Assembly: GCF_014652795.1 (NCBI RefSeq)
Contig: NZ_BMZM01000001.1
Location: 868,001 to 932,000, forward strand
Direction: 5' to 3'
DNA from: Kushneria pakistanensis
Lineage (GTDB): Bacteria > Pseudomonadota > Gammaproteobacteria > Pseudomonadales > Halomonadaceae
Length of the DNA stretch: 64,000 nt
In this document: positions 59,596 to 60,587 of the stretch, one piece after another
How positions within the stretch are numbered: the stretch's first letter is position 1
Layout of the letters: each line of letters begins with the position of its first letter
Position numbers and translations under genes: made by a program
Notes under the pieces: model-generated
The model's input: only the letters and a program-made list of their open reading frames with translations
The model's database searches: none
Told to the model about the DNA's origin: nothing

Positions 59596-60456
59596 TCAGC
59601 GGCGATAACGATGAATGCGCAGACTCGGAATAAAGGGTTCACTCTCGATTTTCGAATCTGCACGTAATGCACGAGTCCGCTGCTCCGGAGGCTGCGGGGA
59701 GGGCTGATTGATCTGCGGCAGACGTTTATCCGATGCCGGTACGAATAATGGCAGGGCTACATTCATGGCGCGGCGTGTGTGGCCGTCTTCCAGTGGTTCT
59801 CGAAAAAACAGATTGGCTCGCATCAGGGGGGCCTGCGTCTGTACCTGTGCCAGCATCTCACCATCAGGCAGACCTGCCAGTAGTCGATACTGAATCTGGA
59901 CGTGCGCGGCTTCGTTGTTCAGCCTGGCCAGTTTGGCTTCTACCTCGGCGACACTCATGCGCTTGATGGAGCGTCCGCTGGAATACCATGCGAGCCGAAT
60001 GCGCGATACCGGGGCATCCGCGATCGGGAGACGCCGCCAGCACTGTTTGAGATGCAGGCGCGCCATGCCGCTTCCCTTGAGATGATCATGCAGAACAGGG
60101 TGGCGAAAGGGCAGCGTTGCCTTGAGCTCGGCAATCATATTGGGGTGTTGTTTTCGGGCAACGCTCAGCTGATGAGCAAAGGCATCCTTGCAACGATTTA
60201 CCTGCCATGCCTGCTCAAGCAGGGCGTCACTGGCCACCACGACGCCAATATGATCACGTGTCGCACGGCCGTCCTGCCCATCCTGATACCAGTAATCGGT
60301 CAATGCCCGCATCAGCCAGTCAATATCGGCTTCACCATCAAAGCGCCACATGGCCGGCGGCTGTTGTCTTGCCGATGCAATGAGTGCTTCCGTGGCTTCC
60401 ACCAGCTCGTCAAAACTCTTTTCCAGTTCCGCCATCAATTGATAGTGCAATGACAT
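59596..60456 (-). CDS. tus: DNA replication terminus site-binding protein, Tus family
   Basis: 286-aa basic protein whose pattern matches E. coli Tus, the fork-trap protein that binds Ter sites and blocks DnaB-led forks from one side. Matching stretches include: the N-terminal helices; a GVVV...NRCKDAF region that lines up with the GV...NKLKTTF region; LHDHLKG against the VHRHLPG segment that holds the lock histidine and glycine; RIRLAWYSS...VAEVEAKL against RFGWANK...RDEVLAQL; and the C-terminal IPSLRIHRY against IPRLHLYV. Overall identity is low, so the call rests on this ordered run of matches. It is transcribed from a promoter overlapping a Ter-like sequence. Confidence 0.75.
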   Translation of the reverse strand: MSLHYQLMAELEKSFDELVEATEALIASARQQPPAMWRFDGEADIDWLMRALTDYWYQDGQDGRATRDHIGVVVASDALLEQAWQVNRCKDAFAHQLSVARKQHPNMIAELKATLPFRHPVLHDHLKGSGMARLHLKQCWRRLPIADAPVSRIRLAWYSSGRSIKRMSVAEVEAKLARLNNEAAHVQIQYRLLAGLPDGEMLAQVQTQAPLMRANLFFREPLEDGHTRRAMNVALPLFVPASDKRLPQINQPSPQPPEQRTRALRADSKIESEPFIPSLRIHRYRR

Positions 60457-60492
60457 GACCGTGCCATCCCTGCGCTTGGAATATACCGTTAT

Positions 60493-60527
60493 CTTTTAGC
60501 ACGGGCCGAAACAGTTAACAATCCTGT
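60493..60527 (-). promoter_or_regulatory. Promoter of the Tus-like gene overlapping a Ter-like sequence
   Basis: On the minus strand the -35 TTGTTA (60516-60521) and -10 TAAAAG (60493-60498) are 17 bases apart. The -35 lies inside ACAGGATTGTTAACTGT, which resembles the E. coli Ter core (ATGTTGTAACTA), most clearly in its TAACT end. In E. coli a Ter site also overlaps the tus promoter and serves self-repression. Confidence 0.45.
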
Positions 60528-60587
60528 AATGGCTATCAGCATTCGCACTTAAAGGGTGTTATGACAGATGCTGATAGCCTGAATGCC

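Follow-up and report, generated by a model that had tools for sequence, protein, structure and literature searches.

The locus and its features

The window analysed here is a stretch of 64,000 nucleotides (64 kb) from the genome of Kushneria pakistanensis. It contains a gene of the Tus family and, upstream of it, a candidate Ter site and possible promoter elements, all on the minus strand:

59596..60456, minus strand: gene for a diverged Tus protein of 286 amino acids (stop codon included in the coordinates), identified by its open reading frame, a profile match and a fold match
60481..60495, minus strand: candidate Ter site AAGATAACGGTATAT at the promoter of the gene, of the general form AAGATAACGGTATAW
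60493..60498, minus strand: possible -10 element TAAAAG (after TGC), assigned by eye, overlapping the candidate Ter site
60516..60521, minus strand: possible -35 element TTGTTA, assigned by eye, within the 17-mer discussed below and with a spacer of 17 to TAAAAG

The gene is flanked by sthA on one side and by agmatine genes on the other. In the K. pakistanensis genome, it is located 175 kb from dif and thus in the terminus half of the chromosome, even though the genes next to it are not terminus markers. Its transcription runs away from dif, as does that of tus in E. coli. A homologue was found in 40 of the 58 genomes searched (own genome counted) and in 35 of the 37 Halomonadaceae genomes examined. 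Moreover, 80 loci out of 258 confirmed matches were kept as the set of named homologues; among them are four Kushneria records, three with 91-93% identity and one with 87%, in keeping with a genome in or near Kushneria. The neighbourhood of sthA, two agmatine genes and a lolC-like gene is common to the window and 30 of these 80 loci, while 40 loci have none of the four neighbours, five have sthA alone and five all but sthA. In one complete Kushneria genome (G001), the tus reading frame (L009, C1:3012212-3013065) is broken near its 3' end by one TGA and one TAG, and the oriented sites described below are still present despite the interruption. This locus with its internal stops was excluded from the alignments.

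Kinship with Tus

Searched as a single sequence, the window protein matches no Pfam family up to an E-value of 10, the Tus family PF05472 included, and it yields neither a PDB chain by phmmer nor a Tus match in NCBIfam. An NCBIfam match to HrpB2 (E 0.05) is far under the cut-off and was rejected. From the broader set of relatives described below, 3 of 31 sequences reach PF05472 (best E 2.8e-5); the values for L044 (4e-4) and L032 (0.0051) are under the curated cut-off. Since 4 of the 31 also reach the UreE_N model, surely by chance and with values down to 3e-4, such single-sequence matches to PF05472 count for little.

The kinship becomes visible when families are compared. Profile A2 comprises 62 Halomonadaceae sequences (61 of the 80 named loci and the window), and the broader profile A1 comprises 31 sequences (30 loci and the window), two distant members among them. 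The profile on the Tus side combined the E. coli protein with four members of PF05472 from the same order. By using hhalign, A2 was matched to the Tus profile with a probability of 97.4 (E 1e-11) and A1 with a probability of 98.6 (E 4.9e-16). Searched against PDB sequences, A1 retrieved no Tus; its two weak matches were to a designed bundle (3.9) and to the design of an ice-binding protein (0.16). The structure predicted for the window protein has a pLDDT of 83.8, and a fold search of the PDB gave only four matches below an E-value of 0.001, all of them Tus structures from E. coli (6.5e-14 to 3.3e-12; TM 0.65-0.68 by query), the next one being at 0.12. Thus, by computed homology and fold, the gene product is a Tus protein that has diverged past the PF05472 model. 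An earlier note, made from the letters of the window, had assigned the 286-residue product to this family and proposed a profile search and a structure prediction as checks; the assignment is borne out by the family profiles and the fold, but not by the single sequence.

The earlier note had also pointed to the segment with the lock histidine and glycine, and the profile alignments agree with it. F140, H144 and G149 are listed as residues of the E. coli lock pocket in Table 1 of a recent review (PMC10331603). H123 of the window protein pairs with H144 and is kept in 60 of the 62 close vs 22 of the 31 broader sequences; G130 pairs with G149 and is kept in all 62 and all 31. In the profile alignment, F140 is paired with a histidine, H119, and I79, which we take to be a further residue of the E. 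coli pocket, with Y57. The structural model is weakest at residues 128-135, which adjoin the pocket (pLDDT <50). According to the same table, E47, E49 and R198 of E. coli Tus stabilise the lock or slow the fork via the helicase (PMC10331603). In the alignments with both A1 and A2, these three residues fall opposite gaps.

The candidate Ter site at the tus promoter

The earlier note had named the 17-mer ACAGGATTGTTAACTGT at 60511-60527 as a Ter-like sequence on the promoter of the gene. The 17-mer does precede the gene, and its last letters resemble TAACT. However, a genome scan for oriented copies near the terminus yielded one exact copy and one with three mismatches. With up to three mismatches allowed, the 300 bases preceding the homologues contain the 17-mer in 1 of 40 cases, which is the locus of the window genome itself, and the best match in the 80 named loci (of 258) has five mismatches. 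A single exact copy that is not conserved upstream of homologues refutes the 17-mer as a multi-copy terminator, and we consider its being the Ter site practically negligible as an explanation. The TTGTTA inside it may be a -35 element. A sigma-70 promoter scan upstream of the gene returned nothing at the threshold of the scanner, so the -10 element is a putative one.

The element that does recur upstream of the homologues, GATAACGGTATA, is closer to the gene than the 17-mer. In what follows, the candidate Ter site is used in three forms, the 15-base AAGATAACGGTATAW, the 12-mer GATAACGGTATA and the 10-mer TAACGGTATA; as a short duplex, it is AAGATAACGGTATAA. The 10-mer has a single copy in the 64-kb window on either strand, and this copy lies within the candidate site. 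It is present upstream of the tus homologue in 35 of the 80 named loci (80 of 258), in each case as one copy on the strand of the gene, with 13 to 42 bases between it and the matched start; no further copy was found on either strand across the 976 kb of the 80 loci. Likewise, it lies at most 150 bases from the start in 20 of the 35 family loci from the genome search. All 35 named loci with the 10-mer retain at least one side of the window neighbourhood, and none of the 40 named loci that have none of the four neighbour genes contains it. The fetched loci of the other 45 named homologues hold no 10-mer, and autorepression via the exact site is therefore not universal. In one genome (L021 in G031, C1:1324258), a perfect site is located just downstream of tus, inside an inverted repeat AGAGATAACGGTATAAGTCGTTATCTCT. 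What the earlier note had said of a Ter-type site at the gene's own promoter, with a sequence other than the enterobacterial one, is supported (GATAACGGTATA here vs GTTGTAACTA in E. coli), but the sequence that it named was wrong and the likely Ter is AAGATAACGGTATAW.

Oriented sites around dif

The exact 12-mer GATAACGGTATA occurs 15 times in the K. pakistanensis genome, and around 5 to 15 exact copies are present per chromosome, on both arms. A recognisable dif is present in 11 genomes, and on the contigs that carry it 106 of 107 exact copies of the 12-mer read away from it, the sole contrary site being in G031. In this genome, a distance of only 0.75 Mb separates dnaA from dif on a chromosome of 3.73 Mb, which points to either an extensive rearrangement or a faulty assembly. 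With its arms defined by dnaA instead, 3 of its 8 sites are contrary and the count becomes 104 of 107 (by hand). The binomial value of 7e-31 for the polarity is too favourable, since related species have sites in common and the 107 sites are therefore not independent. In all 11 genomes, dif lies between the innermost sites, at a distance of 14-55 kb from each, so that the innermost pair spans 40-81 kb. In the window genome, the cumulative GC skew peaks at C1:1081651, which is 21.5 kb from dif, and the skew switches within the interval bounded by the innermost sites (1050811 and 1120654). The oriented copies that the earlier note had proposed to look for near the terminus are thus found for a sequence other than the one that it named, and they speak for the diverged fork trap that it had suggested.

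The count covers dif-bearing contigs; in G000 and G009, dnaA is on a contig other than that of dif, and four exact sites of the former and three of the latter that lie elsewhere were excluded, as were single-mismatch rows from G016 and from the contigs of G000 and G009 that do not carry dif. The dif pattern was not found in G032, G034, G011 and G041, which are therefore outside the count. G041 has four exact sites, three on the minus strand up to 1655836 and one on the plus strand at 2095238. G030, also outside the 107, has nine exact sites with a strand switch between 1596162 and 1713262, and a weak dif candidate at C1:1664068 (three mismatches, one of three such matches).

Variants of the site differ in polarity. 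Sites with a change in the first two bases are all in polarity (31 of 31; GG 15, TA 8, AA 5, GT 2, GC 1). In the core, the picture is uneven: polarity is kept by GATACCGGTATA (8/9), GATATCGGTATA (8/9), GATAACGGTACA (5/6) and GATAAAGGTATA (4/4), and it is lost by GATAACGGTGTA (2/6), GATAACGGAATA (0/3) and GATAACGGTAGA (2/5). With zero or one mismatch, all sites read away from dif in the complete chromosomes of Halomonas beimenensis (6/6), Halomonas socia (8/8) and Cobetia amphilecti (9/9), and matches with two mismatches in these three chromosomes are not polar (about 4-5 of 10; 1/2, 1/4 and 2/4). The Ter core of E. coli was rejected as the site in this organism, being absent or not polar: GTTGTAACTA has no copy in the 400-kb terminus stretch, and GTTGTAAC has five vs 8.2 expected, three of them in polarity.

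Could the polarity of GATAACGGTATA be an artefact of strand composition or chance? Other 10-mers, mostly GC-rich ones, are polarised in the 400-kb terminus stretch as well, and by raw difference TAACGGTATA ranks about 18th among 40 listed, with TTGGCTTCAG counted 11 to 0. Against this, composition predicts 0.2 copies of GATAACGGTATA in the genome where 15 are seen, the G-rich strand runs opposite to it on both sides of dif, and the reversed 15-mer has 0-3 matches per strand and genome. Moreover, 7 of the 8 exact sites of the terminus stretch lie outside open reading frames of at least 150 codons (two GG variants are inside such frames). AA and A/T, which were not part of the query, flank 38 of the 47 exact sites that lie up to 200 kb from dif and 11 of the 24 farther out; one of the locus sets was picked by the pattern itself, so that only flanking columns are informative. 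An artefact of this kind is therefore very improbable. In the same terminus stretch (G000, C1:806174-1206173), overlapping 10-mers of TTCTTGGCTTCAGCCTC occur 8-11 times, all away from dif, and are perhaps repetitive coding sequence.

Co-occurrence of the gene and the sites

At least three sites (AAGATAACGGTATAW, up to one mismatch) are present in all 36 genomes that have a homologue of at least 46% identity and in 1 of the 20 other genomes (G057, with four). The two genomes of the same family without the gene have no AAGATAACGGTATAW sites at up to one mismatch, and one of them, G013, retains one exact 12-mer. In the four genomes whose homologues are distant (26-31%), the counts are 0, 2, 0 and 2, which is no more than in the controls.

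In a quick tree, the proteins cluster strongly by genus, with 12 changes for 10 groups (minimum 9; shuffled mean 29.8). A resident gene would be expected to show such clustering, although more than one change each is required for Halomonas, Modicisalibacter, Billgrantia and Kushneria under their present names. The longest end branch belongs to the Cobetia protein. In Cobetia amphilecti (L122, NZ_CP084115.1) and in G015, four of the five perfect matches each are AAGATAACGGGATAA, and Cobetia tus is preceded by AAGATAACGCGATAA 45 bases before the matched start. The shifted motif and the long branch could possibly reflect co-evolution of Tus and Ter.

Proposed mechanism and its rival

Homology and fold of the protein, conservation and polarity of the sites, their enclosure of dif and the co-occurrence of gene and sites are computed observations. 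They point to a diverged chromosomal Tus and its Ter sequence AAGATAACGGTATAW, with sites reading outward from dif that would trap forks and a promoter copy that would serve self-repression; we give this joint reading a probability of roughly 0.9. The protein would bind AAGATAACGGTATAW as a Ter sequence other than that of E. coli. By homology, the bound protein would let forks pass into the terminus and stop those leaving it; as the sites read 5' to 3' away from dif, forks would enter the terminus zone and be stopped on leaving. The copy of the site at the promoter would allow the protein to repress its own synthesis, and a flipped base is predicted to lock the complex. Aligned by eye in the same polarity, both Ter sites share AAG......GTA (AAGTATGTTGTAACTA in E. 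coli and AAGATAACGGTATA here), which is short enough to be chance. The G opposite the C that flips into the pocket may thus have been kept, with the first G absent from 13 of 138 oriented TAACGGTATA sites.

The protein could also be a Tus descendant that acts as a self-repressor only, with the oriented sites belonging to a different terminus system, for instance a protein of segregation or of the macrodomain. Other systems do have oriented motifs in the terminus, KOPS being one of them; fork arrest by the Halomonadaceae protein is a prediction, and the segments through which E. coli Tus contacts the helicase are missing from the profiles. However, the identical sequence occurs in the tus promoter and around dif, the sites accompany a close homologue in 36 of 36 genomes and are lacking in the two family genomes without the gene, and Cobetia, whose protein sits on the longest branch, has an altered site upstream of tus and alterations in most of its terminus sites. 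We therefore regard a separate terminus system as improbable and prefer a fork trap built on the diverged Tus. A bolder version of the fork trap is more speculative and, in our judgement, somewhat doubtful: a further chromosomal trap with a different Ter code and no known helicase contacts, shifted once again in Cobetia. In this version, the lack of the helicase-contact residues would mean that arrest is achieved by the DNA lock alone or by a new contact.

Previous surveys and implications

A survey based on PF05472 found resident tus genes in most Enterobacterales, in Pseudoalteromonas and in Aeromonadales save one, and argued for few and recent domestications of tus (Galli 2019; PMC6549158). 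The three resident groups are repeated in a 2023 review (PMC10331603), and Halomonadaceae are not among them in the accessible parts of either text (PMC6549158; PMC10331603). The survey probably overlooked the Halomonadaceae trap because the protein falls below the profile. We found no report of a fork trap in Halomonadaceae or of its Ter in the literature searched, which mostly excludes subscription papers and preprints. Combining Tus, Halomonas and replication termination gave nothing there, and a match for a terminus site-binding protein and Halomonas concerns, in its accessible part, plasmids of Azotobacter. Among the matches listed, the literature on Tus/Ter termination does not mention Halomonadaceae, and newer work on fork traps reports no trap in them. 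The 10-mer TAACGGTATA occurs by chance in a few of the papers searched, none of which contains the 12-mer GATAACGGTATA. Within this scope, the resident trap and its Ter sequence have apparently not been described in print; the terminus-binding label already stands on relatives in RefSeq.

If the prediction is true, Halomonadaceae would provide a second Ter code together with the protein that reads it. The system would test in nature whether arresting a fork requires contact between Tus and the helicase or only the base-flip lock, and it might serve as an orthogonal fork barrier in the laboratory. The more speculative version would add a natural series of co-evolving Tus-Ter pairs, Cobetia included.

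Comparison with known systems

The sequence data suggest that Halomonadaceae have a fork trap of a familiar type that uses another Ter code, with binding and arrest as predictions. It resembles the Tus-Ter system of E. coli (PF05472) in fold, profile similarity and the aligned lock histidine and glycine, as well as in a Ter site at the tus promoter (TerB in E. coli) and opposed sites of the same polarity around dif; TerB and TerC of E. coli read away from dif. The upstream layout is also alike, with GTGCTATAAAA followed by TerB in E. coli and GTGCTAAAA running into the candidate site in the window. It differs in the Ter sequence, in a protein that falls below the PF05472 model, in the gaps at the E47/E49 and R198 segments and in H119 opposite F140. 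The type II layout of fork traps is matched by opposed sites, several per arm, and by a tus-linked site that is not the innermost one (window genome), but not by an innermost pair 40-81 kb apart in 11 genomes or by the 45 of 80 named loci without a site near tus.

Relatives are also found on plasmids, with 40 records from Vibrio (16), Marinobacter (9), Pseudomonas (5), Halomonas (3) and others (7), many of them annotated as hypothetical. Two relatives on Halomonas plasmids (49% and 47% identity) bear the RefSeq name DNA replication terminus site-binding protein, so chromosomal copies may carry this label too. Five plasmid stretches that were fetched contain no TAACGGTATA. Five PF05472 genes elsewhere in the order (L033, L034, L035, L037 and L039) are preceded by other elements, recognised by eye, for instance GCATGTTGGTCTAA, GCATGATGGTCTAA and GGATGGTCTAAA, which are possibly further Ter types. 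Finally, the RTP fork trap of B. subtilis is similar in its opposed terminators and autoregulation and unlike the present system in using an unrelated dimeric protein (PMC10331603).
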